DNA of 64,000 nt, from positions 2,563,231 through 2,627,230 of the forward strand of contig NZ_CP037422.1 of the NCBI RefSeq assembly GCF_007748175.1, given 5' to 3'. Shown in pieces: positions 8,971-32,221 of the stretch. Positions within the stretch are counted from its first letter, which is position 1. Each line of letters begins with the position of its first letter. The notes under the pieces were generated by a model that saw only the letters and a program-made list of their open reading frames with translations, made no database searches and had not been told where the DNA came from. A program made the translations under genes and the position numbers. The stretch comes from Gimesia aquarii (GTDB lineage Bacteria > Planctomycetota > Planctomycetia > Planctomycetales > Planctomycetaceae).

Positions 8971-10041
8971 ATGATGCACATTCCCACTGTTCCGTTTGGC
9001 TTACGAATCCTCGTTTTATGTAGTGCAGTATTGCTGTTTCAACCTGTGTGGGCTGCAGATGAAAAACCGCAGGCCGGCGAACGTCTGCAGAAATTATTGA
9101 AGCGATTTCCGGGGGCCGACAAAAACAAAGATGGCATCCTCACGCGCGCCGAAGCGATAGAATACCGCAACAAGATCAGAGGCGCGCAGGCCAATGGGGT
9201 CAAGCCGACGTTGGGAGATGTGAAATACGGCGATCACGCGCGGAACGTGCTCGACTTCTATCAAGCGAAGTCCGACCAGCCGACACCGCTGGTGATCTAC
9301 ATTCATGGCGGCGGTTTTGTAGGCGGCAGCAAACGAGTGAATCCCCGACAGCTTCAGCTGTTCCTGGATGCCGGCATCAGTGTTGCCGCGATTCACTACC
9401 GCTTTATTAATGGTAAAGATATTTTGCTTCCGGAGCCGCAGCGCGACGGAGCGCGGGCCGTTCAGTTTCTGCGCAGCAAAGCGAAGGAATGGAACATCGA
9501 TCCTAAACGGGTTGCCTGTTACGGCGGTTCTGCCGGGGCCGGGATTTCGATGTGGATTGGTTTTCATGATGACCTCGCCGATCCAAAAAGTGACGATCCC
9601 GTCGAACGCGAATCGACGCGTATTCAGGCTATCGGCACCTTTGGCGGCCAAAGCACCTATGATCCGATCAAGATCAAAGCGCTGATCGGCGGACGGGCCT
9701 GGGAACATCCCTCAATCTTCAAAGCCTACGGCGTCGAGACCGCAGAAGAGGCATTGCACCCCACACCGGAAAAACAGAAACGGTACGATGAGTCCTCAGC
9801 GATCACCCACCTGACAAAAGAGGATCCGCCATTGTACATGGTCTATAATGAAGCCGATGGCCCCCTGCCCGAGAACGCACGGCCCGGCCAGGGTATTCAT
9901 CACCCCAACTTCGGCCGCGATCTGGTCAAAAAAATGAATGAACTACAAATCGAAAACGTGTTCGTCTACAAACCCAAAGACCGCGACCCTAACCGCGAAA
10001 TGCTGGAATTCTTCCAAAAACAGTTCGCGAAAGTGAAATAG
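8971..10041 (+). CDS. Secreted alpha/beta hydrolase with EF-hand
   Basis: 356 residues. A signal peptide ends at about Ala29. One EF-hand-like calcium loop lies at 50-61 (D-K-N-K-D-G-I-L-T-R-A-E). Next comes an esterase/lipase core with the oxyanion motif IHGGGF at 111-116 and the nucleophile elbow YGGSAGAG (Ser187). The acid and His are likely in the NEADG and HHPNFG regions near the C-terminus. This arrangement matches planctomycete feruloyl/acetyl-esterase-like (BD-FAE, HSL-type) exoenzymes. It probably releases acyl groups from polysaccharide or small esters. It is monocistronic. Confidence 0.85.
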   Translation: MMHIPTVPFGLRILVLCSAVLLFQPVWAADEKPQAGERLQKLLKRFPGADKNKDGILTRAEAIEYRNKIRGAQANGVKPTLGDVKYGDHARNVLDFYQAKSDQPTPLVIYIHGGGFVGGSKRVNPRQLQLFLDAGISVAAIHYRFINGKDILLPEPQRDGARAVQFLRSKAKEWNIDPKRVACYGGSAGAGISMWIGFHDDLADPKSDDPVERESTRIQAIGTFGGQSTYDPIKIKALIGGRAWEHPSIFKAYGVETAEEALHPTPEKQKRYDESSAITHLTKEDPPLYMVYNEADGPLPENARPGQGIHHPNFGRDLVKKMNELQIENVFVYKPKDRDPNREMLEFFQKQFAKVK

Positions 10042-22511: not shown

Positions 22512-22560
22512 AGGACTAAAAAGGAGGACTAAAAAGGGGTCAGACCCCCATACGGTCTGT
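22512..22560. repeat. GGGGTCAGACCCC element, copy 2 (with doubled 5' part)
   Basis: It starts with AGGACTAAAAAGG twice in tandem, then the palindrome GGGGTC-A-GACCCC (22536-22548), a CCCATAC loop, and GGTCTG (22554-22559). CAGACC (22541-22546) can pair either back to GGGGTC or forward to GGTCTG, so two exclusive hairpins are possible. The element ends 40 bases before the HExxH gene start. Confidence 0.8.
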
Positions 22561-22599
22561 CCAACACTATGCAGTCGAATGAAAAGTGATCCGTAACTG

Positions 22600-23028
22600 A
22601 TGAGGGCGCAACCGATTAATCGCATTGTTTTTATAACTCGGGTATTTTGGGCGTCACCGAATACGATTCTCGGTCTGATCATCGGCGGCGTTGGAATGTG
22701 TTTCGGCGGACGTGCGCGAATTTGTGGTCGCGCGATCGAGTTTTACGACGGCGGCACAAAGTGGTTCGTACAACGACTACCGCACGGCCAATTCACCCTC
22801 GCGCTGACGCTCGGCCACACAATCCTTGGTCAAACGGACGCCTCTCTGGACATTTCACGCAAACATGAAACCGTCCATATCCTGCAGTATGAGCGTTGGG
22901 GACCCTTTCTTTTGCCTGCCTATTTTCTTTCGTCTCTCTACATGTGGCTAATCGGTCGGCGTTTCTATCGCGATAATCCATTCGAGCGCGAAGCATATGA
23001 TGCCGACGGTGGGGAGCATGATTTATAG
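22600..23028 (+). CDS. HExxH-motif membrane protein, copy 1
   Basis: 142 residues. A hydrophobic N-terminal helix (about 10-35) is followed by a conserved body: RAIEFYDGGTKWFVQRL, L-T-L-G-H-T-I-L-G-Q, then S-R-K-H-E-T-V-H-I-L-Q-Y-E-R-W-G. HETVH (89-93) is a metalloprotease-type HExxH followed by a glutamine three residues on, as in DUF4157. A second helix (about 101-118) and N-P-F-E-R-E-A-Y-D close the protein. Protease activity is not proven. This family recurs in planctomycetes. It is 93% identical (10 differences) to copy 2 at 27754, with shared upstream DNA, and a truncated third copy is at 23903. Confidence 0.8.
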   Translation: MRAQPINRIVFITRVFWASPNTILGLIIGGVGMCFGGRARICGRAIEFYDGGTKWFVQRLPHGQFTLALTLGHTILGQTDASLDISRKHETVHILQYERWGPFLLPAYFLSSLYMWLIGRRFYRDNPFEREAYDADGGEHDL

Positions 23029-23081
23029 AATTAGAAGAATAGCTGGACTAGAAAAAACGAAACCTGTCCTATTAATTTCTC

Positions 23082-23552
23082 CTAACTGGATCTAGAACGT
23101 GCGCTCTCCAAAAACTCTTCTACTTCTCCCCAATGTGCCTCAGCATCACCAAAAGCCCAGCAATATGTTAATATTTCCACTATTAGTGAGTTCCCAGACA
23201 ACCAATGAGATTTTAATCTTCGAAAATACTTATCAAAGTTCCGTTCTAATAGATGTTCGACTAACACTGTAGATACTGAATCAACACCCCTGTTTGTTCC
23301 TTCTTTGATGAACCGATCTACTATAGACCACACGAGCTCTTCGGAATAATCGAGATATTCTGACACAACAATTGCTGACTGCCAGCGACACGATTCAGAT
23401 CGATCAGAAATCATGGATGCAGCGATTTTTAAATATGATTTCGGAACACCTTCATAGACATTTTTTCTCATGAACTTCAGGGCGCGCAACCGGTCCTGGT
23501 ATCTAGAAGATTTGCTCAAGGATTTTAGATCTGAAATTGATAGTTGATTCAT
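23082..23552 (-). CDS. Small HEAT-like helical protein
   Basis: 156 residues, no signal peptide. The helix pairs (YQDRLRALKFMRKNV, then I-A-A-S-M-I-S-D-R-S-E-S-C-R-W-Q-S-A-I-V-V) look like short HEAT/ARM repeats. No specific family recognised. It lies in the element-rich zone. Its upstream DNA contains copy B of the region found at the 569-residue gene start (12904-12996). Confidence 0.6.
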   Translation of the reverse strand: MNQLSISDLKSLSKSSRYQDRLRALKFMRKNVYEGVPKSYLKIAASMISDRSESCRWQSAIVVSEYLDYSEELVWSIVDRFIKEGTNRGVDSVSTVLVEHLLERNFDKYFRRLKSHWLSGNSLIVEILTYCWAFGDAEAHWGEVEEFLESARSRSS

Positions 23553-23600
23553 GTTATTTTTTTCGAGGAACTTAAGGGGACAACCATCTTACTGTCTGTG

Positions 23601-23695
23601 TTTGTGTATTTTTTTATATCTGCAAATAGCTTGCTGTAACGATCCAATCCTAATGAAATGACACCTTGAAATGTGATTCGTGCCCGATATCATAC
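23601..23695 (-). promoter_or_regulatory. Repeated upstream region, copy B
   Basis: About 95 bases, ending about 50 bases upstream of the HEAT-like gene at 23552, alignable with 12904-12996. In copy A the start codon lies within the block. In copy B that position reads TAT instead of CAT on the plus strand, so the start codon is lost. Confidence 0.5.
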
Positions 23696-23808
23696 TGACA
23701 TCATATAAAGCATCCACTTGTGATCTGAAGCTAGTAGGGCATCAATGCTAAAGAACAATTGGTCATTTTGCTGAATTTGTTTCATATCAGCATCAAATAT
23801 ATACAAAG

Positions 23809-23863
23809 AAGACTAAAAAGGGGTCAGAAGACTAAAAAGGGGTCAGACCCCCATACAGTCTGT
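23809..23863. repeat. GGGGTCAGACCCC element, copy 3 (partial plus full)
   Basis: A partial unit (GACTAAAAAGGGGTCAGA) is directly followed by a full one (23829-23863) with the intact palindrome and the CAGAC ... GTCTG pairing. The right edge runs without a break into leader DNA of the truncated HExxH gene, as in copy 2. Confidence 0.75.
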
Positions 23864-23902
23864 CCAACACTATACAATCGAATGAAAAGCGATCCATAAC
23901 TG

Positions 23903-23953
23903 ATGAGGGCGCAACCGATTAATCGCATTGTTTTTATAACTCGGGTATTTTGG
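23903..23953 (+). pseudogene. Truncated HExxH gene, first 17 codons
   Basis: The start codon and 17 codons (MRAQPINRIVFITRVFW) are identical in protein to copy 1, and about 40 bases of its leader are also present (from 23861). After TTTTGG the reading frame passes straight into the next GGGGTCAGACCCC element (23952) and soon stops. The remaining 125 codons are absent downstream. This is a breakpoint at the element edge. Confidence 0.85.
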
Positions 23954-23999
23954 AGGACTAAAAAGAGGACTAAAAAGGGGTCAGACCCCCATACGGTCT
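23952..23999. repeat. GGGGTCAGACCCC element, copy 4 (doubled 5' part)
   Basis: GGAGGACTAAAAAG and AGGACTAAAAAGG precede the palindrome, then the CCCATAC loop and GGTCT. It is joined to the truncated HExxH gene on the left. The right flank (24000 on) is unrelated to the leader of the full copies. Confidence 0.8.
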
Positions 24000-24232
24000 C
24001 AACGTAAGCAGAAACTGGAAGATGACAGTGCCATTCGGGTCAGGAGTCGTTTGTCTGTCCCTGAGCCCTTATTGTCGTCCAATGAAATGGTCTCCAACAC
24101 TACACTTTTACGAGGTTAATTAGGGTGTTTTTGGGGATTCACTTATTAGAAAGATAAGCTTACTCAATTAGAGGATTGAAGTATTATTAGTGGTCATGTT
24201 ATATACGCAGCAATCATCCTTAAGAAAAGCGA
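24000..24232. other. Intergenic, nothing recognised
   Basis: With the elements to the left, this completes a 680-base gap (23553-24232) without an intact gene. No coding, RNA or clear hairpin was seen in this part. It may be remnant DNA. Confidence 0.4.
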
Positions 24233-25402
24233 TTACGTTCGTTTTCTCAAGAATAAGAACAATACTGCTACAATCGCAATTACAACAAGATTTAATACGA
24301 TTAATGCTGTGAATCTAGAGCCACTCTTATCTTTGACGTTTTCAAGTTTTTTTGGTAAGGACTCCTTTGCGACCGGGAATCCAACAGCCTCTTCTTCTTT
24401 CGTCATCAAGCGAGCGCCGTCTTTTGTCCAGATCTGAAGCTGTTCTGATGACGCAACAGTTAGGTCTTGAATTGGAGCTCCAATAGGCAATTCCACACCT
24501 TTGTAACCAAACTCTTCGTCATTAGGTTCGACAACTTCAAATGATTGGATCTCTGTTGTTTCTTTTTCGATCTCGTGCCCCTTAGACCCCCACGAGTATT
24601 TAATTTGTTTCGGAAACCAGATACTTGGAGCCCACTGTTTATTAATGATTTCAACATGGGTTTCGAGTAACCGGGTATTCGTTTTTGTACGACCCTCTAT
24701 TTTTACCATCAAGCCATTCTGGGCTGGACAGTACCAAATTGAAAAGTTTCCTTTTCCTTGTACTGTATAGTCAACTCTTATTGTTTTAAGTTGATTGTAA
24801 TCCTCTTCTGTGATTTTAGTAGCAGTATGGTCTTCGCGGTTTAAAAAACCTCTTGGACTTAATTGTGGCATCCTCCAGACGGGAGCTAATGCAGTACCAA
24901 TAAATTGAGGCCAGAATGCTTGTTTGTTTGCGTAAAAGTCTCCTTCCATACTTTGTTTGTCCTTGTATGTGCCTTGCTCATATTCTGAGTTTCTGATGAT
25001 AATAACATCGTCTTTAATTATGACGTAGTCTGGTTTAGTCCAGCCTTTATCATCACTGAAATCAGAAGTACTAATACTATCTTTTTCTGAGGTAGCGTGG
25101 CGGAACCTTTTTTTTAATCTCAGTCGTTTATGGTCAAAATATGCTGAATATTCAATTTCAGTTTTGAACCCGGTCTCGGGCGTTTCATACACTATGAAGG
25201 CTTCGTATGTTGCACCGGGATAACTTGAGGTTAGAGCTTCGTACGCTCTTTTCTCTATCGCGTCTGCTTCGGCTTCAATAGCTTCATTTCCAGCAGTGGC
25301 ATCTTTTCCTGGAAAAGATGCCAAATAGAGAATAACTAAAAGTAAAAACAGTTTAATAAAACCCGGTACACAATTATTGAACATGAGGAAATGATTCTCC
25401 AT
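24233..25402 (-). CDS. LolA-like exported protein with C-terminal anchor (module A)
   Basis: 389 residues. A signal-type helix (about 15-32) is followed by an acidic extracytoplasmic domain of about 320 residues with alternating beta strands (Y-E-A-F-I-V-Y-E, then E-I-E-Y-S-A-Y-F), then a C-terminal membrane helix (about 366-385) and the tail RKRT. Planctomycete proteins of this build are usually called outer-membrane-lipoprotein-sorting (LolA) like. It shares overall length, ends and a V-E-L-P-I-G-A-P-I-Q-D-L type motif with the module B protein at 29488 (LPKTAVSDL). The last gene of module A, it lies after a strong hairpin at 25579. An alternative start is at 25384. Confidence 0.65.
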   Translation of the reverse strand: MENHFLMFNNCVPGFIKLFLLLVILYLASFPGKDATAGNEAIEAEADAIEKRAYEALTSSYPGATYEAFIVYETPETGFKTEIEYSAYFDHKRLRLKKRFRHATSEKDSISTSDFSDDKGWTKPDYVIIKDDVIIIRNSEYEQGTYKDKQSMEGDFYANKQAFWPQFIGTALAPVWRMPQLSPRGFLNREDHTATKITEEDYNQLKTIRVDYTVQGKGNFSIWYCPAQNGLMVKIEGRTKTNTRLLETHVEIINKQWAPSIWFPKQIKYSWGSKGHEIEKETTEIQSFEVVEPNDEEFGYKGVELPIGAPIQDLTVASSEQLQIWTKDGARLMTKEEEAVGFPVAKESLPKKLENVKDKSGSRFTALIVLNLVVIAIVAVLFLFLRKRT

Positions 25403-25578
25403 CAGTTAAGATAATCGTAAAATACAAGCCCTGTCACCTGCCCGGTACAAGCTTCATTTTAATTAGAATAGCCTCTGTAGAATACGGCCGAGTATCTCTG
25501 TCAAAAGTATGAAATACCATACTATGAACCACAACAACTTGGTCTCATTGCAAACAATATATTACAGGTTCCAGCACT

Positions 25579-25612
25579 CCATTCACTCGCAGTCATACCT
25601 GCGAGTGAATGG
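25579..25612. terminator. Strong hairpin between Cys-rich and LolA-like genes
   Basis: A perfect 14-base stem (CCATTCACTCGCAG pairing with CTGCGAGTGAATGG) and a 6-base loop TCATAC. It lies about 60 bases past the stop of the Cys-rich gene on the minus strand, with no long U tract. It may terminate part of the transcripts or protect an upstream mRNA end, giving more Cys-rich product than LolA-like product. Confidence 0.65.
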
Positions 25613-25669
25613 CTTAGGCAATGGATAAGTAGTATTTCATGCATATGTCTAAGAATTTAGCATGGATAA

Positions 25670-26104
25670 TCAGCTGGGTTCTTCGCAAGTTTGAGTTGTC
25701 GCAACCTTACTTGTTGATGCAACACTATGATAGGCACCTTGTCCACAAGCATCCAGCGTGTGCGGTGAATCTGGATCGTTGGGGTCGTGGTTTGGGTTTG
25801 GGATGGGAGCAAAAATGCATCGATACTGTTTGGTACAAGTATATGTAGCTCCGTTTTGAACGCAATAAGTGCTACTAGAACCAGCCCCACAGTATGCCTT
25901 ACGTGGTTGTGACACTTGCATAAAACCAGTACATGATCCAGGACCACTCCATGCTGGACACCCCGTGGGACTTCCGCAATCCCCCGCCGCTGCCTTGACT
26001 TCTTTATTGTTGCAGATCGGAGCACTGCTGACAAACGATGTAGTAAGAGCCATTATCACGATGGCACAAGTGAAACTAACGAAAAAGTTTTTGGTCTTCA
26101 ACAT
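25670..26104 (-). CDS. Secreted cysteine-rich protein, 10 Cys (module A)
   Basis: 144 residues from the ATG at 26104 (AGGGA at 8 bases). An ATG at 26110 would overlap the upstream stop. The Sec signal ends at ...FVSSA. The mature part of about 115 residues has ten cysteines and is rich in Gly, Ser and Pro (PNPNHDPNDPDSP near residue 105). No double-glycine leader is seen, unlike the two module B proteins, but size, export, cysteine number and gene context match. Disulfide-rich and extracytoplasmic. Function unknown. Confidence 0.75.
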   Translation of the reverse strand: MLKTKNFFVSFTCAIVIMALTTSFVSSAPICNNKEVKAAAGDCGSPTGCPAWSGPGSCTGFMQVSQPRKAYCGAGSSSTYCVQNGATYTCTKQYRCIFAPIPNPNHDPNDPDSPHTLDACGQGAYHSVASTSKVATTQTCEEPS

Positions 26105-26106
26105 TT

Positions 26107-26853
26107 TCATTTCCCTTTAGTGTGAACGGATAAAGAAACAGAATTACGCGCCACAGGCATCTTAAGCAACAGTGGCACGCGTACGTGTGGCATCCATTTG
26201 CTGGTTGTTGAAACAGAAACATATGCAGGTTCAGACAACAAACTGTCCGCTTTCCCCACAATCGATTTTGGGGTTAAAATAATTTTTGTGCGTGAACCGG
26301 TTTCCTTCGAAATACTGATGTCGATTAACGAGCTTGTACAGTTCACTTGCGTCACAGAAACTTCTGGATCGTAGTTTGATTGACAGACAATCTCCACAGG
26401 TTTTTCTTCATCCATATCGATGGTGATAGACTTTGGGCTTAGTGAAATATGTGGCAACACCTTAGCACGCGTTGACAATGAAATCTCGCCAGTGCCACCT
26501 GAGTATTTATAGGGGATTAACACTAATGTCTGTAGATCCCCACCATTACTTCCACCTTTAAACTCAGCCGTCGCTTGCACGCTTCCACCTGGAGGCAGAA
26601 CTTGCTGTGGTATTACGACTTTAGTACAGGTGCAAGAGGTCTTGGGTTCAAGCAGTGTCACTTCGAGGTTACTTTGATTAGTAATGCTAAAATCTCCAGT
26701 AAATGGAGCTTGGGTTACTTCCCCGACATCTAGCAATTCTGGTGACACGGAAACTCTAGTACTAGGAGGAGGGGTTAACCGATACACTGCAAAGTTTGCA
26801 ACTGCAACCACACTGGCTAAACCGATAATATACATAAAGGTATGCTTGGTCAT
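26107..26853 (-). CDS. DUF1573-type membrane-anchored protein (module A)
   Basis: 248 residues. An N-terminal membrane helix (about 7-24) is followed by a DUF1573/ASH-like immunoglobulin domain: L-L-D-V-G-E-V, F-S-I-T-N-Q-S-N, then the hallmark T-S-C-T-C-T (Cys74, Cys76) and V-L-P-P-G-G-S-V. A second beta domain follows to the end. The family is extracytoplasmic and of unknown role. The same SCTCT core is in the C39 fusion at 30647. It is the first gene of module A and ends 3 bases before the Cys-rich start, so the two are one transcript. A GGGGG ribosome site is present. Confidence 0.8.
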   Translation of the reverse strand: MTKHTFMYIIGLASVVAVANFAVYRLTPPPSTRVSVSPELLDVGEVTQAPFTGDFSITNQSNLEVTLLEPKTSCTCTKVVIPQQVLPPGGSVQATAEFKGGSNGGDLQTLVLIPYKYSGGTGEISLSTRAKVLPHISLSPKSITIDMDEEKPVEIVCQSNYDPEVSVTQVNCTSSLIDISISKETGSRTKIILTPKSIVGKADSLLSEPAYVSVSTTSKWMPHVRVPLLLKMPVARNSVSLSVHTKGK

Positions 26854-27323
26854 ATTGCCCCCTTATTTATAACCACACCAGTTATAAAGTTGACAAAAAA
26901 ACTCAACTAGGTGGGGTGACAAATAGCACATGTAAATATATGTGACTAATGACATCATTATAATAAATAAAAAAATGTACAATAGATACAAAACAACAAT
27001 TTTGTAAAATAATAATATTAATACTTATTTTATTAAAAAAATAAAGGTTCAGACAAAAAGGTGTCAGCGACGAATGTCACTGCCGTTTGTATGGTAAGGA
27101 TTTCCGTTCATACGACCGCCTTTCGTTCTTTATGGTAATGGTACCTGGGCATTTTCATGAGTATCGTTATTGTGGGTCGGCGTTTATTGGCTCTGCGTTC
27201 GACTCATCCCTTGCGATGTCCTGCGCGTTCGCTACAGGGGATCTGTTGTCCTAATGTTGCCAGTTCTTGGTCGCGCCGACCACCGCACACAGCAGCCAGT
27301 TGGTTGCTAACATTTGTTGTGTG
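26854..27323. other. AT-rich intergenic region upstream of module A
   Basis: About 470 bases without a credible gene. The first 200 are very AT-rich (runs of A and T, ATTATAATAAATAA). A weak minus-strand promoter is possible (TTGTCA at 26891-26896, TTATAA at 26867-26872, spacer 18), but it leaves a very short leader. The GC-richer part, 27060-27320, has no coding signal and could be decayed sequence. Confidence 0.4.
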
Positions 27324-27360
27324 GGAGGACTAAAAAGGGGTCAGACCCCCATACAGTCTG
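27324..27360. repeat. GGGGTCAGACCCC element, copy 5
   Basis: GGAGGACTAAAAA, the palindrome, CCCATAC and AGTCTG. Here the element is separated from the HExxH leader by about 350 bases that hold a short reading frame (27367-27642). In copies 2 and 3 the two are joined directly. Confidence 0.8.
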
Positions 27361-27366
27361 TTCAGG

Positions 27367-27642
27367 ATGGGAGTTGGGAAGTTTTTGGATGCTCCATTTG
27401 ACCCACCAACTCACTGGTTACCCATCGTCAAGCGTACCATTGAGGCTTCTGACCTCTCCAGCGGTACACACTGGTTTCGCTGCTACTACGCGCAGTTTGA
27501 TAACAAGCCATCTGCGATAGAGGTGTTACTAGACAACAATGACTGGGTCCCGATAATTGAGACGATATCTGACATTGATTGGCCTGCTTCCAATGATTTT
27601 TACAGTGTACGAGTCTTTGCCGTAATCCAAGACCACAAATAA
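27367..27642 (+). CDS. Small hypothetical protein or 3' gene remnant
   Basis: 91 residues starting 7 bases after the element, with no ribosome site at proper spacing. The sequence is protein-like (HWLPIVKRTIEASDLSSGTH, then SVRVFAVIQ) and fits a soluble beta-rich domain. It may be the 3' end of a longer gene whose beginning was replaced by the element. No family recognised. Confidence 0.4.
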   Translation: MGVGKFLDAPFDPPTHWLPIVKRTIEASDLSSGTHWFRCYYAQFDNKPSAIEVLLDNNDWVPIIETISDIDWPASNDFYSVRVFAVIQDHK

Positions 27643-27753
27643 TCATGTCACGAATGAGAAAGAGTGCAGATTCTATACTAACTGTCTGATGAGTTTTTTC
27701 GGCAGCAAATATAAACAACACTATGCAGTCGAATGAAAAGTGATCCATAACCG

Positions 27754-28182
27754 ATGAGGGTGCAACCGATGAATCGCATTGTTTTTCTAGCTCGGGTATT
27801 ATGGGCGTCACCGAATACGCTTCTCGGTCTGGTCATCGGTGGCGTTGGAATGTGTTTCGGCGGACGGGCGCGAATTTGTGGTCGCGCGATCGAGTTTTAC
27901 GGCGGCGGCACAAAGTGGTTCGTACAACGACTACCGCACGGCCAATTCACACTCGCGCTGACACTCGGCCATACAATCCTTGGTCAAACGGAAGCCTCTC
28001 TGGACATTTCACGCAAACATGAAACCGTCCACATCCTGCAGTATGAGCGTTGGGGACCCTTTCTTTTGCCTGCCTATTTTCTTTCGTCACTCTACATGTG
28101 GCTAATCGGTCGGCGTTTCTATCGCGATAATCCATTCGAGCGCGAAGCATATGATGCCGATGGTGGAGAGCATAATTTGTAA
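27754..28182 (+). CDS. HExxH-motif membrane protein, copy 2
   Basis: 142 residues, 93% identical to copy 1 at 22600. Eight of the ten differences fall in the first 50 residues; residues 51-140 differ only at position 80. HETVH, the following QYERWG and NPFEREAYD are intact. The 45-base leader (CAACACTATGCAGTCG and on) is shared with copy 1 and the truncated copy. The near-identical 3' part suggests recent duplication or gene conversion. Function unknown. A zinc-dependent peptidase-like role is inference. Confidence 0.8.
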   Translation: MRVQPMNRIVFLARVLWASPNTLLGLVIGGVGMCFGGRARICGRAIEFYGGGTKWFVQRLPHGQFTLALTLGHTILGQTEASLDISRKHETVHILQYERWGPFLLPAYFLSSLYMWLIGRRFYRDNPFEREAYDADGGEHNL

Positions 28183-28291
28183 GTCAGTACTGCAATTCAT
28201 TTTAGCATTGACCATTCTAAATCGCATCACAATATCTATACACTTCACATAGTATCTTTTCGGTCATACTGTTATTTTGTGAATAATTATG

Positions 28292-28325
28292 TTGACAAAT
28301 AATCATAATGTCGGTTTGCTATATA
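28292..28325 (+). promoter_or_regulatory. Weak promoter candidate for module B
   Basis: TTGACA at 28292-28297 and TATATA at 28320-28325, preceded by TGC. The spacer is 22 bases, too long for a standard sigma-70 promoter. It is the only -35-like match in the AT-rich 200 bases before the Cys-rich genes. AAGGAG stands 6 bases before the first start codon. Confidence 0.25.
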
Positions 28326-28393
28326 CGTAGTGGATATTCATATCAAAGTAGGGGTTTTTTGTATTTTAAACTCACTTAAAAAAGGAGTAAAGA

Positions 28394-28849
28394 ATGAGAG
28401 CACAAACTTTGAGTTCAAATCTGTTCAAGTCTTTAGGCACGGCAATGGTTGTAGGCACCATTGCAATAACTGCTCAAATGGTGAATGGTCAGCCCCAGCC
28501 TCTTTCACTTGACCAATTACAGGCGGTCACTGGAGGCGGTGACTGTGAGGGTTGTAAGTCTAACGAAACAGTATGCAGAAATGCGAATGACGAAACGTGT
28601 ACTCCTGCAAGTACCGCAGGTAAGTTTCAAAAAATTGTATACACTGGTCAAGACGCACAAGTAGAGGTGACGGATAAAGATTCAGGTATTGAGGATGCCG
28701 TAGCAAACACGCCAGAAGACTGTAATGAAAAATGGACGGGTTGCGACAAAGTTAACGGCTCGTGTGTCAACTGTGAAACAACTTCAACAAGTTCAACAGT
28801 TAATTCAAACTGCCATGCTAATGACCCTACAGCATGCCCAGCAAGTTGA
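28394..28849 (+). CDS. Double-glycine-leader cysteine-rich exported protein 1 (module B)
   Basis: 151 residues. An N-terminal hydrophobic helix (about 14-31) ending ...VNGQ looks like a Sec signal. Next comes PLSLDQLQAVTGGG (36-49), a close match to the double-glycine leader of bacteriocin-type prepeptides (LS-x-x-x-L-x-x-V-x-GG). The roughly 100-residue remainder holds ten cysteines at 51, 54, 61, 69, 110, 117, 124, 127, 140, 148, and ends CPAS. It is the first gene of module B, behind an AAGGAG site. The expected product is a disulfide-bonded secreted peptide. Whether it is toxin, signal, adhesin or structural is unknown. Confidence 0.8.
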   Translation: MRAQTLSSNLFKSLGTAMVVGTIAITAQMVNGQPQPLSLDQLQAVTGGGDCEGCKSNETVCRNANDETCTPASTAGKFQKIVYTGQDAQVEVTDKDSGIEDAVANTPEDCNEKWTGCDKVNGSCVNCETTSTSSTVNSNCHANDPTACPAS

Positions 28850-28900
28850 GAATAGCTGAAGGACATTTGCATTTTCATTTAGTCTAAACAGGAACAAAAA

Positions 28901-29362
28901 ATGAACATTCGAAACTGGAACTTTAATCTGTTTAATGTTGTAAGTGGTGCCGCACTGGTAGTGCTGGCTATGACTATCAGTACACAATTAGCGAGCGGTC
29001 AACCGCAGCCGCTTTCATTTGAGCAACTGCATGCCATTACTGGTGGTGGTGATTGTGAAACATGTACAGTTAGAACTACAACTTGCAAAACGGCAAATCT
29101 TACAACTTGTAAAAAAGAAACTCCTACTTCGCAAAAGTATTCAAAAGTTGTATGGACGGGCCAAGATGAGAAACATGTAAATACGGGGCAGGCTTCTGGT
29201 AGAGTTGATTATGAGGCGAATACTCCAGATACCTGTTTTACACAGTGGTCAGACTGTGACAAAGTCAACGGCTCGTGTGTTAACTGTGAGACGACTTCAA
29301 CTTCGACAGATGTTAACACAAAGTGTCTCTTAGTAGACAGTGATCTTTGTCCGGCTAGTTAA
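28901..29362 (+). CDS. Double-glycine-leader cysteine-rich exported protein 2 (module B)
   Basis: 153 residues, a paralogue of the preceding gene. It has the same Sec-type helix, PLSFEQLHAITGGG (37-50), and ten cysteines at 52, 55, 62, 70, 112, 119, 126, 129, 142, 150. That is the same spacing to within two residues, and the block DKVNGSCVNCETTSTS is identical. The ends PAS and CPAS also match. Between the conserved blocks the two differ strongly, as is usual for tandem secreted peptides under diversifying pressure (inference). 51 bases separate the two genes. Confidence 0.8.
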   Translation: MNIRNWNFNLFNVVSGAALVVLAMTISTQLASGQPQPLSFEQLHAITGGGDCETCTVRTTTCKTANLTTCKKETPTSQKYSKVVWTGQDEKHVNTGQASGRVDYEANTPDTCFTQWSDCDKVNGSCVNCETTSTSTDVNTKCLLVDSDLCPAS

Positions 29363-29487
29363 TCAAGATAGTAGTTGTGTGAATGACATGACTGCTACAG
29401 CTTTAAATTCCGGTGGCTGTCGAAGCTGGATGTTTTTCGAGAACCAAAATTACTTTGATCTAAACTCGTTAAAAGGTTCTTATTCTG

Positions 29488-30633
29488 ATGACGAATGAAA
29501 TCTGGCTTCATCGTTTTCGATCCTGCTTTCTTGTTTTGGCTATGATTACTGTTGCTCCAGCTTTTAGTCTGGCGGCAGATGTTCCTTCTCTGAAAGAGCT
29601 ATTGGCTAATATTCAGAGTTACGAGAAATCAATCGAAAACCTGCACTCTGAAACAAAATGGGAAAAACACAAACAAGGACGTTTCCAATTCGAAGATGTC
29701 GTGACTCATTACAGGGACGAGTTAGGTCGCATGCGAGCGATTGTCTCACACATCGCGATCTCAAACGAATCAGGCGAACGAGTTGCTCCTGAAAAGAAGT
29801 CTAATGAGCTGCTGTTTGATGGCGAAAAAACCGTCTCTCTCGATTACTATCCAGGTCGTGTGACAGCCACCGGTTTTAAAACAGAAAAAGAAGTACCCCA
29901 GGATGATCTTGGTTACCGCACAGCCCAAATCTTTGAAGGGATGTGGCCACCAAAAGTAGGTCCACGCACGATTCGCAATGCTTTGTTTTATGGTTTTGGA
30001 TCCTGTCTGGACTGGATGAAAGAAGTTGAGGATGGGAAAGCGAAAGGGAAAGTGGTTTCTCTTGACGATGAGGGAAAGCTGTTCGAATTCATATATGAAC
30101 CACCCGATAACTCGGTTGTAAAACGATTTAAAGTCTTAATTGATGCCAGCCGTGGTTGGATTGTCACTCGTATTCTGGGGCTGGGTGATACGGATGATGA
30201 AGTCCTATACAAACGAGAAACAGAATACTCTCAACTCAAGAATGGATTATGGGCTGCAAAAAGCGGAGTAGAGCAAAGCTGGACGAAAGGCGAAAAGAAA
30301 CCGTCGGTTGAAACCCATTTCACTGTCCAGAAAGTGGCATTGAATGATGAAGATTTCGACGAGTCGGTCTTCGACATTGTTCTGCTTCCCAAAACAGCCG
30401 TATCTGACCTACGGTATAGCGTCAATTACCGTGTTGGTCAGGAAAAGGTGTTTGACGATGATCTGGCTCAACTTGCGGAAGAAGCCAAGTTGGCCGAGGA
30501 ATTAGGGCTGGCTCAGACACCAATTGCTAAGACTCCAAAAACATCGAGACTGATGTGGTTAATATTGGTGAACGTTGGCGTTCTGGCTGTGGTAGTATTC
30601 TTCGTATTTAGTCGTCGCACAAAGAAAACTTAG
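29488..30633 (+). CDS. LolA-like exported protein with C-terminal anchor (module B)
   Basis: 381 residues. Signal peptide to about Ala30 (FSLAAD), then a roughly 320-residue extracytoplasmic domain rich in beta strands and charged residues, then a C-terminal membrane helix (about 355-375) and a basic tail SRRTKKT. The build is like 24233-25402 of module A, with the related LPKTAVSDL motif before the C-terminal part. It sits between the Cys-rich genes and the C39 fusion, 13 bases from the latter, so they are one transcript. It could hold or carry a lipid or peptide partner at the membrane (inference). Confidence 0.7.
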   Translation: MTNEIWLHRFRSCFLVLAMITVAPAFSLAADVPSLKELLANIQSYEKSIENLHSETKWEKHKQGRFQFEDVVTHYRDELGRMRAIVSHIAISNESGERVAPEKKSNELLFDGEKTVSLDYYPGRVTATGFKTEKEVPQDDLGYRTAQIFEGMWPPKVGPRTIRNALFYGFGSCLDWMKEVEDGKAKGKVVSLDDEGKLFEFIYEPPDNSVVKRFKVLIDASRGWIVTRILGLGDTDDEVLYKRETEYSQLKNGLWAAKSGVEQSWTKGEKKPSVETHFTVQKVALNDEDFDESVFDIVLLPKTAVSDLRYSVNYRVGQEKVFDDDLAQLAEEAKLAEELGLAQTPIAKTPKTSRLMWLILVNVGVLAVVVFFVFSRRTKKT

Positions 30634-30646
30634 CAGGATCGAATTT

Positions 30647-32221
30647 ATGTCCGGTCTCATCCCCTTGATTGTACTATGCGCGGCCTCTAATACCGGAGAC
30701 GTTTTAGATTCTGCCCCCTACTGGCTGGACACACGTCGTGCCTGTGGTCCTCTCTGCCTGTCGTTTCTTGACAAATATTACGGGGGGACAAGCTCGTATA
30801 CTGAGATCGCAAAACAGAGCCCACCCGGTCCCGGTGGAACGAATCTGTCTAAACTATCAGAAGTAGCCGAGCAGCTTGGTTATTACACTCTGGGATTTGA
30901 ATCGAACACGGAGAATTTGAAGCGTTTAAAGTGGCCTGCCATTATCCATCTCAATGCGCGTGATTTAACTCCCAAGCCAGGAACCGTGCCTACAACCCAC
31001 TTTGTCGTCGTTCATGGCTGGAATGAAACGAAAGGACAATTCGCAGTGTTTGATCCGCCATCAAAGTATATCAATGTGACAGAAGAATGGATTTCAGATC
31101 GTTTTTCCGGAGCAGGTTTAATCGTTTCAAACGAGCCCATTGGTTCTTTTGAGCAGGCATTCAAGCCCGGTTCCATCTGGTCGTCATGGCTTCCTGAACT
31201 CTTCACACTTGTCTTTGCTTCGAGTGCTCTAATCTGGATAGGATGGCGGCCAAAGCGAAATAAAAGTCGTGTCCTGGCTACAGCTTCCCTGCTGCTTTTG
31301 CTTTGTGGCTGTGCTGCAGAAGCACCAAACGAGAATCCTTATCATGTTGATAAAGGCGAAGTCAGACCGGGAACTACCATTTACCACACGTTCAAAGTCG
31401 TTAATACTCAGAATGAACCCGTTCGATACACGGACTTTGTTGGTTCATGCACTTGCACTAACACCCTGTTAGGTGGAATGCCCCTCCTGGTAAAACCAGG
31501 AGAATTTGCAGAGGCCAAAGTAGAAGTACCCATTGAGAAAAACTCTAAAGACCAGAGATTATTACGCACCTTTTATCTGACTACCGATTCGAAAGATCCA
31601 GAATTCCGCAAAATCACGTTATTGCTGAATGCCGATGTGCGGGGTTTGGTCTCCCCGATCCCACAGCGAATCATGTTTGGCAATCTTTCTACCAAACCAG
31701 ATGTGTCTAAACAGTTGACTGTGATTGAACGAGAACCGGGAGTGCTTAAAACCTTTCAGTCAGTGTCTACGGACCATAGTGGTGTCGTTGTTAAGCGCGA
31801 AGAGTCTTCAGCAGATTTACTGTTATTTAATGTAACGCTCGGTGATCACCTGTCGGCAGGTCTGTTATCGGCCAATATCATACTCACTTTCGACAACGAT
31901 GATATTCAGGATGTCAAGATTCCCGTCTTAGCTCAAATCAAAAGCGACTTCAAAACGATACCTTCGAAGCTCGTTGTTCGCTCAGGAGCCGGAGAATACA
32001 AAATGCGCGTTTCTTCTCTGAGTGACAAACCAGTGAAGGTACTCAAATACGATTGTCCTGAAGGGGTTTCGCTTGAGGTTAAAGAAGACAATCCGACAAT
32101 TTGCAGTTTGAAAATTTCAGTCTCCCAAGAGCATCTCGCAATGCTTCCCAGTGCGATTACATTACATCTCGATCACCCGGATGAGCAGGAATTAAGAATT
32201 CCAATCACTCGACCAAAGTAA
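30647..32221 (+). CDS. C39 peptidase-like/DUF1573 fusion protein (module B)
   Basis: 524 residues. A short hydrophobic start (residues 3-13) precedes a C39 double-glycine-peptidase-like domain (about 25-160): Cys33 in R-R-A-C-G-P-L-C-L, G-T-N-L-S-K-L, then His118 (THFVVVHGW) and Asp136 (FAVFDPPS), the full triad. A membrane helix (about 182-200) and basic loop RPKRNKSR follow. A second hydrophobic run ends in LLLLLCGC, a lipobox-like motif (Cys222). A DUF1573 domain follows with G-S-C-T-C-T (Cys268, Cys270), and a further beta domain to the end. The inner lipobox suggests fusion of a C39 gene with a lipoprotein gene. There is no ABC transporter domain. The likely substrates are the GG-leader proteins encoded upstream. 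Confidence 0.8.
   Translation: MSGLIPLIVLCAASNTGDVLDSAPYWLDTRRACGPLCLSFLDKYYGGTSSYTEIAKQSPPGPGGTNLSKLSEVAEQLGYYTLGFESNTENLKRLKWPAIIHLNARDLTPKPGTVPTTHFVVVHGWNETKGQFAVFDPPSKYINVTEEWISDRFSGAGLIVSNEPIGSFEQAFKPGSIWSSWLPELFTLVFASSALIWIGWRPKRNKSRVLATASLLLLLCGCAAEAPNENPYHVDKGEVRPGTTIYHTFKVVNTQNEPVRYTDFVGSCTCTNTLLGGMPLLVKPGEFAEAKVEVPIEKNSKDQRLLRTFYLTTDSKDPEFRKITLLLNADVRGLVSPIPQRIMFGNLSTKPDVSKQLTVIEREPGVLKTFQSVSTDHSGVVVKREESSADLLLFNVTLGDHLSAGLLSANIILTFDNDDIQDVKIPVLAQIKSDFKTIPSKLVVRSGAGEYKMRVSSLSDKPVKVLKYDCPEGVSLEVKEDNPTICSLKISVSQEHLAMLPSAITLHLDHPDEQELRIPITRPK

Follow-up and report, generated by a model that had tools for sequence, protein, structure and literature searches.

A Gimesia aquarii locus that probably separates Sec export from C39 trimming of Cys-rich double-glycine proteins

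We analysed a 64,000-nucleotide stretch of Gimesia aquarii DNA (contig NZ_CP037422.1, positions 2,563,231 to 2,627,230; hereafter the window), focusing on four consecutive plus-strand genes at 28394-32221, which we call module B. These genes encode two Cys-rich proteins, a LolA-like protein, and a fusion of a C39 peptidase with a DUF1573 domain. We propose that module B is probably a two-step maturation locus, in which the precursors would be exported by Sec and then trimmed by the C39 peptidase outside the cytoplasm. This reading of the sequences is supported by the co-occurrence of such genes in other genomes, by position statistics, by a gene fusion, and by the lack of a C39-ABC exporter in the genome. 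The features of module B are as follows (window positions; L and G numbers below label loci and genomes).

28394-28849, plus strand: GG protein 1 (151 residues), with a signal-type N-terminus, the leader QPLSLDQLQAVTGG and a 10-Cys mature part
28532-28537, plus strand: Gly-Gly of GG protein 1, with a third Gly next; predicted cut after the Gly-Gly
28901-29362, plus strand: GG protein 2 (153 residues), laid out as protein 1, with the leader QPLSFEQLHAITGG and a 10-Cys mature part
29042-29047, plus strand: Gly-Gly of GG protein 2, with a third Gly next; predicted cut after the Gly-Gly
29488-30633, plus strand: LolA-fold protein, with an N-terminal signal and a C-terminal membrane helix (residues 354-380 in the model)
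30647-32221, plus strand: fusion of C39, membrane segment, lipobox-like site and DUF1573 (524 residues)
30737-31135, plus strand: C39 domain (Pfam), with the Cys33 codon at 30743-30745 and the His118 codon at 30998-31000
31301-31312, plus strand: internal lipobox-like LCGC, after the positive stretch RPKRNKSR
31346-31549, plus strand: DUF1573 domain of the fusion (Pfam), predicted on the outer side

In both GG proteins, a hydrophobic, signal-type N-terminus is followed by a double-glycine (GG) leader (LSLDQLQAVTGG and LSFEQLHAITGG), with 10 Cys residues downstream of the GG. The two proteins are identical at about half of their residues. Their leaders have Leu at −12, Leu at −7, and Val or Ile at −4, and fit the GG-leader motif LSX2ELX2IXGG, as quoted in an excerpt of PMC3897388, except for Gln in place of Glu in both and Val in place of Ile in protein 1. 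GG protein 1 matches no Pfam family at the cut-off and has a sub-threshold match to a CCRG-2 leader (Pfam/NCBIfam scan, E 0.1). In 170 genomes of the family, nothing outside its own locus strongly matches GG protein 2 (best E 3.8e-4). Assignment of the Cys-rich proteins to a known Pfam or NCBIfam family was tried with 43 sequences at E 0.1 and rejected, since single weak matches were all that it returned. A PHROGs search with six proteins and an Rfam search gave no match, and a promoter and terminator scan found no excess over shuffled sequences.

The start codon of the C39-DUF1573 gene lies 13 bases past the stop codon of the LolA-like gene. Residues 31-163 of the fusion match Pfam C39 (PF03412; E 4.5e-16, 59.3 bits against a cut-off of 22), and DUF1573 follows with an E of 1.2e-6. 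The two DUF1573 matches, in the fusion and in the neighbouring module A (described below), score 28.9 and 36.6 bits, respectively, against a cut-off of 26.1. According to Pfam, the 524-residue protein contains no ABC part and carries DUF1573 in its place, and it is thus not the C39-ABC fusion that characterizes a peptidase-containing ABC transporter (PCAT). On which side of the membrane does its C39 domain lie? Between C39 and DUF1573, a hydrophobic stretch is followed by RPKRNKSR, another hydrophobic stretch, and the lipobox-like LCGC. Because a lipoprotein-type signal needs its positive end, here RPKRNKSR, in the cytoplasm, the first stretch would run from the outside to the inside. By this positive-inside rule, we infer that the C39 domain is situated on the outer side of the membrane. 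A lipobox-like site stands at the equivalent place in three full relatives (L164, L198 and L132) and two fragments (L027 in G098 and L028 in G073), and the G098 relative has a clearer signal than the window C39 protein.

Pfam finds no LolA family in the LolA-like protein of module B at E 1, and a sequence search of the PDB with its alignment returned chance-level matches only. The predicted structure has a mean pLDDT of 65.5 and is confident only in the core (block means of 81-91 at residues 31-70 and 171-280). In the PDB, its top matches belong to the LolA/LolB type (best E 4.2e-8, probability 1.00, TM only 0.33/0.50). At E ≤0.001, Foldseek returned 16 PDB matches, of which 10 are LolA/LolB and 3 are MucB, with MucB-MucA complexes among the matches; the identity to the matched structures is 6-14%. 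On the basis of this model, the LolA-fold label stands for the module B protein. MucB guards MucA. A single-sequence search found the LolA-like protein in 3 of the 170 family genomes, its own included. Its use as an exclusive marker of the system was ruled out by matches in 14 of the 17 genus members, including matches away from any C39.

The G. aquarii genome (one contig, 99.79% complete) contains three Pfam C39 matches, in open frames of 399, 541 and 538 residues, all too short for an ABC protein, and the Pfam C39 search found no C39-ABC match in this genome. The matches are located in the window, in L117 (6.15 Mb), and in L241 (5.67 Mb), and each of the three lies in a locus of the module B kind. 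L241 contains a Cys-rich gene (with glycine-alanine, GA), a LolA-like gene with a C-terminal helix, and a C39-DUF1573 gene. In L117 (6147000-6161000), a tandem C39 protein that has lost the catalytic Cys in its second copy lies next to two LolA-like genes and a Cys-rich gene of the signal-GG kind, and a similar tandem layout is seen in L101. Outside this genome, G098 (WFTL01000061.1, Planctomycetaceae) has a LolA-like gene followed by a C39-DUF1573 gene that spans two overlapping contigs. The order in G073 (JAJXXL010000586.1, Planctomycetota) is a Cys-rich gene with AG in the position of GG, a LolA-like gene, a second Cys-rich gene, a LolA-like gene, and the first 74 codons of another gene; the tail of a C39-DUF1573 gene opens another contig, and the two pieces presumably form one gene. 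A same-genus genome, G028, has at L034 an ordinary C39-ABC exporter with a HlyD-like gene and small signal-less GG precursors (VFGG, VMGG), showing that both routes occur within one genus.

A single-sequence search of genome contigs with the C39-DUF1573 protein returned 14 stretches and no relative. Because a profile of the whole protein (A2) was swamped in the phylum by the widespread DUF1573 family, the C39 domain alone was used as the query. This search of 392 phylum genomes yielded 40 discovery loci in which the C39 frame cannot accommodate an ABC protein. On these loci, and before the test loci described below, we wrote a strict detector, which requires a hydrophobic 12-mer near the start, GG 6-45 residues further on, a Cys within 12 residues, and at least four Cys. 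It is positive in 15 of the 40 loci, and 13 of the positives lie near an exported C39 (L099, L101, L102, L104, L110, L111, L114, L115, L117, L118, L121, L132 and L133; the detected GG is a later one in L102 and lies within the C39 protein in L121). Most of these 13 loci also contain LolA-like, DUF1573 or MauE-like genes, by profile or by eye. Two secreted Cys-rich proteins beside the exported C39 of L102 (L102:7311-7712 and 9215-9616) have LLGQC where others have GG, possibly a changed cutting site. The other non-ABC C39 classes (soluble, lipoprotein and multi-membrane-helix), which mostly fall with or beside the PCAT branch, were set aside.

A profile built from 20 exported C39 domains (A6), in all of which the catalytic Cys and His are invariant, matched 72 of 170 family genomes and 167 of 397 class genomes, with C39-ABC proteins included in both counts. 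We picked 60 new test loci with an open frame of ≤700 residues by C39 similarity alone, ignoring their surroundings. The family search supplied 26 of them (E to 4.3e-19), and the class search supplied the 34 best of the rest (E to 7.7e-23). These loci span 50 genomes and eight families and are not fully independent, with L139 and L140 being near-copies of discovery loci. The controls were 20 C39-ABC loci and 39 random stretches (59 together). Among the test relatives, 55 of 59 match PF03412 at E 0.001, and in the alignment of 59 test C39s, from which L176 was left out, the Cys-Gly pair is invariant and the His is present in at least 90%.

A signal-then-GG Cys-rich open reading frame is present in 34 of the 60 test loci, as compared to 1/20 C39-ABC loci and 0/39 random stretches. 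When 7 of the 37 frames were dropped by eye as chance, 30 loci kept one; the discovery frame L111:4126 was dropped as well, the controls were left untrimmed, and the placements in L162, L166, L179, L180, L192, L193 and L194 are doubtful among those kept. With GA allowed, the counts are 44/60, 2/20 for C39-ABC loci, and 1/20 for the first random set (Fisher 3e-11). A GG or GA frame on the same strand as C39 and within 2.6 kb occurs in 39/60 test loci and in none of the 20 C39-ABC loci. The strict GG frames lie on the C39 strand in 33 of 37 cases (p 1e-6), and the LolA-like genes in 45 of 46. An N-terminal hydrophobic segment precedes the catalytic Cys in 55/60 test proteins versus 1/20 C39-ABC proteins at a mean hydropathy of 1.6, and in 46 versus 0 at a stricter 1.9, both cuts having been picked after the values were seen; L143, one of the five without the segment, is cut by a contig end.

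Neighbouring genes recur in the test loci and are absent from both control sets (0/20 and 0/39): LolA-like genes in 38/60 (37 at first count), MauE-like genes in 18/60, genes for a PMT-like glycosyltransferase in 16/60, genes for a protein of about 400 residues with an SCxGxH motif in 15/60, and DUF1573 genes in 12/60. The MauE and PMT_2 names come from Pfam matches of single examples. The original prediction had described module B as a C39 peptidase without an ABC transporter, accompanied by two signal-then-GG 10-Cys proteins and DUF1573, and had suggested a search for co-occurrence in planctomycete genomes. Pfam and the sequence bear out this content, and the gene set recurs across many genomes beyond the controls. 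The prediction had further cast DUF1573 and LolA-like proteins as the helpers; LolA-like genes are indeed frequent, while DUF1573 turns out to be optional, with rhodanese or MauE-like genes found elsewhere.

Next, we consider the leaders themselves. The frames of the discovery and test loci left after dropping by eye give 43 leader sequences, although this curation may still favour leader-like sites. The hydrophobic fraction peaks at −4 (0.72) and −12 (0.60), with 0.51 at −7 and 0.47 at −10. All three of the positions −4, −7 and −12 are hydrophobic in 18 of the 43 leaders, as compared to a mean of 2.4 in within-sequence shuffles, and none of 5000 shuffles reached as high; for the leaders of the test loci alone, the count is 11/30 (mean 1.8, none as high). 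Since the hydrophobic run of a nearby signal can reach −12, the test was repeated with the 35 leaders free of possible overlap, giving 17/35 (mean 2.0) and, for the test loci alone, 10/22 (mean 1.3), with 0/5000 as high in each case. These are the positions that LahT recognizes through hydrophobic pockets, and GG, GA and GS sites occur, according to PMC10885120. Moreover, 36 of the 43 sequences carry an even count of Cys residues downstream of the GG (p 9e-6), as expected if this part folds with disulfides.

In three related loci (L112, L121 and L138, all from the distant family f78), a single protein combines a signal, a LolA-like part, C39, and a Cys-rich tail with GG or GA. The three proteins align end to end with 41% and 33% identity and therefore count as one event by shared descent; the LolA-like profile reaches E 0.001 only in L138. 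Elsewhere in the phylum, L132 has a C39-membrane-DUF1573 fusion as in the window, together with a GG Cys-rich gene and a neighbour that is LolA-like by eye, the profile falling short. The 59 test C39 proteins also contain rhodanese (18), DUF1573 (9) or DUF1559 pilin-like (1) domains. In a second subtype (L114, L118, L133 and test loci), which hints at thiol chemistry, an exported C39-rhodanese fusion is accompanied by a MauE-like membrane protein and by one, two or three Cys-rich genes of the signal-GG/GA type. L111:6595-8214 encodes a C39 joined to a pilin-like DUF1559 protein, with a DUF1573 gene on one side and a signal-GG Cys-rich gene on the other. The protein of about 400 residues (L117:7541-8743, L101:5010-6188, L102:9670-11082 and L115:5450-6817) shows SCxGxH, TGHxLEW and THA-type motifs by eye, and may be a metal enzyme with the Cys-rich proteins as its substrates. 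In a tree of 80 exported, 23 C39-ABC and 21 other C39 rows, all 23 C39-ABC (PCAT) rows sit in one branch, and 79 of the 80 exported rows lie outside it; the exception, L185, has a short frame whose export segment is weak, and no partner was found for it. The exported label requires 3 changes on the tree versus 36.5 on shuffling. The deep forks are poorly resolved, and a single origin of the exported C39s is neither shown nor excluded.

How would such a precursor mature? First, both the precursor and the peptidase would cross the inner membrane through Sec. The C39 domain, held on the outer side by its membrane anchor, would then bind the leader helix through positions −4, −7 and −12, and cut after GG, or GA in some relatives, releasing a protein that would fold with disulfides. 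Until the cut, the precursor or the leader may be held by the LolA-fold partner, whose C-terminal helix would serve as its anchor, perhaps as MucB holds MucA. DUF1573 would act as a lipoprotein-type partner, either split from C39 at the internal lipobox or staying joined to it. Candidate kinds for the mature protein are a bacteriocin-like protein, a signal, or a surface protein.

Several observations weigh against this proposal. The N-terminus of the window C39 protein (MSGLIPLIVLCAAS) is short and lacks positively charged residues, and the export-type N-termini of the precursors and of the relatives' C39s were judged by hydropathy. The internal lipobox pattern is missing in the C39-DUF1573 proteins of L153, L178 and L241, the last from the window's own genome, and the AlphaFold model of the fusion (pLDDT 39) is too poor to use. 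The strict detector is negative in 26 of the 60 test loci, or in 16 if GA is allowed, and it is also positive in L122 and L127, which belong to other C39 classes. A same-strand GG or GA frame within 2.6 kb is lacking in 21 loci, 7 of which have less than 1 kb of contig upstream of C39. Finally, some of the genus members with LolA-like matches have no C39 match (G025, G029, G031, G032 and G035).

Could the precursors instead leave through a C39-ABC exporter encoded elsewhere in the genome, with the local C39 being a bystander or degenerate? A normal C39-ABC system with short signal-less GG precursors does exist in the genus, at L034, yet all three C39 matches of the window's own genome are non-ABC; therefore, this explanation becomes less likely and two-step maturation slightly more so. 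In addition, the precursors have an export-type N-terminus, the local C39 keeps its Cys and His, the GG frames go with non-ABC C39 and hardly with C39-ABC in the counts given above, and C39 and the GG/GA tail form one protein in the three related loci. We thus consider such an exporter extremely improbable. It also seems improbable that the GG is incidental, with signal peptidase alone maturing the Cys-rich proteins and C39 having another substrate. In its favour, a clear GG is missing in some relatives (LGQC in L102, AG in G073 and AAAG in module A), but the −4, −7, −12 pattern exceeds 5000 shuffles, the GG frames are biased in strand and distance, and the C39-tail fusions link the enzyme to the GG/GA tail.

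A third explanation, which we regard as unlikely though worth bearing in mind, is that the outside C39 serves surface assembly in a FapD-like manner, so that the cut switches on export or assembly and the Cys-rich proteins are disulfide-linked surface proteins. FapD is a Sec-exported C39 required for Fap secretion (excerpt of PMC5557850), a planctomycete protein sacculus with disulfide bonds has been described (excerpt of PMC2754498), and the MauE-like and rhodanese genes of the sister loci fit thiol chemistry. The distribution of the loci, by contrast, is patchy, with a non-ABC C39 match in 9 of the 17 genus members, and GG protein 2 lacks strong matches beyond its own locus in the family; both are unlike what a conserved wall protein would show. 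Beside module B and in the gene list of the window, we noticed no fap-like gene, such as those for amyloid repeats or the FapF barrel, though no search was aimed at fap genes. Two-step maturation by Sec and C39 thus remains the reading that we prefer. The original prediction, made from a single locus, is borne out in part. For its central claim, that export is separated from trimming, it finds agreement in the Sec-type N-termini, the predicted outer-side C39, and the lack of a C39-ABC match in the genome, while the cutting at GG and the location of the peptidase are deduced from sequence.

A wider scheme, for which the case seems evenly balanced, is a route spread throughout the planctomycete phylum, so far without a name, by which disulfide-rich secreted proteins would mature. 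It would combine Sec export of GG-leader precursors, trimming by an exported C39, swappable outer-side helper sets, and, in one lineage, a one-protein version that bears its own substrate. The helper sets in this scheme would be a LolA-fold holder with a DUF1573 lipoprotein, rhodanese with a MauE-like protein, the PMT-like glycosyltransferase, and the SCxGxH protein of about 400 residues.

The second gene set of the region, module A (24233-26853, minus strand), encodes DUF1573, Cys-rich and LolA-like proteins.

24233-25402, minus strand: LolA-like protein with a C-terminal hydrophobic stretch, which joins the LolA-like profile
25670-26110, minus strand: Cys-rich secreted protein without a GG leader
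26107-26853, minus strand: DUF1573 protein (Pfam domain) with an N-terminal hydrophobic stretch

The DUF1573 match has an E of 4.7e-9, and the Cys-rich protein has AAAG-D-C at the place of GG. Neither a C39 nor a GG leader was found in module A. The original prediction had treated it as a fellow module, which its DUF1573, Cys-rich and LolA-like genes favour and its lack of C39 and GG leader disfavours; we describe it as a related set whose place in the route is unproven. The LolA-like label, which was given to both modules, is borne by a predicted structure in module B and by the iterated profile of the module B family in module A, with Pfam giving none. Between the modules lies an HExxH gene (27754-28182), a 93% identical duplicate of 22600-23028, and nothing was found that ties it to the C39/Cys-rich system. 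Both 142-residue HETVH proteins lie near a 41-nucleotide repeat (GGACTAAAAAGGGGTCAGACCCCCATAC...), of which five copies occur within 22523-27364; the arrangement looks like a segment that was duplicated or is mobile.

In textbooks, C39 peptidases appear as parts of ABC exporters. If the proposal is true, a large family of exported C39s with identifiable GG substrates would mean that GG leaders are no longer tied to ABC export. FapD-type enzymes would gain a class of model substrates, and disulfide-rich planctomycete proteins that have so far escaped mining would come to light. GG-leader mining limited to ABC neighbourhoods or to very N-terminal leaders would miss such proteins. Defined genes would also make it possible to test the long-standing question of Cys-rich surface proteins in planctomycetes.

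How does module B compare with known systems? The NVEAL proteins of Bacteroidetes have a signal, a short leader motif and a Cys-rich part, and lie near DUF1573; we found no paper on them. LolA, LolB and MucB share the predicted fold of the module B LolA-like protein, and the likeness is one of fold only: unlike these structures, the module B protein is C-terminally anchored and is encoded beside C39 and Cys-rich genes. The C39-like toxin domain in a polymorphic-toxin paper (PMC3482391) was considered and set aside, since it describes something else. With the PCATs (LahT and ComA), the window system shares the C39 domain PF03412 and a GG/GA leader with hydrophobic −4, −7 and −12 positions (excerpt of PMC10885120). 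In contrast to the PCATs, the window C39 has no joined ABC exporter, and by hydropathy the precursors and the relatives' C39s have export-type N-termini. A signal-less leader cut in the cytoplasm is likewise not what hydropathy indicates: a hydrophobic N-terminus precedes the leader and, in relatives, the C39, and the cut would occur on the outer side.

The prediction had considered the route distinct, and we found no description of a planctomycete C39/Cys-rich system in the open-access library that we searched. An exported C39 is itself not wholly new, with FapD of the Pseudomonas Fap amyloid as the precedent: it carries a Sec signal and is active in the periplasm, and PMC5557850 calls its substrate unclear, the class uncharacterised, and the Fap proteins devoid of canonical C39 sequences. 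Like FapD, the planctomycete loci encode an exported C39 without an ABC part; an export segment is present in 55/60 relatives, and the window protein joins them by the topology argument, its own N-terminus being weak. Unlike the situation with FapD, canonical GG leaders adjoin the planctomycete C39, together with Cys-rich products and LolA-fold/DUF1573 partners.

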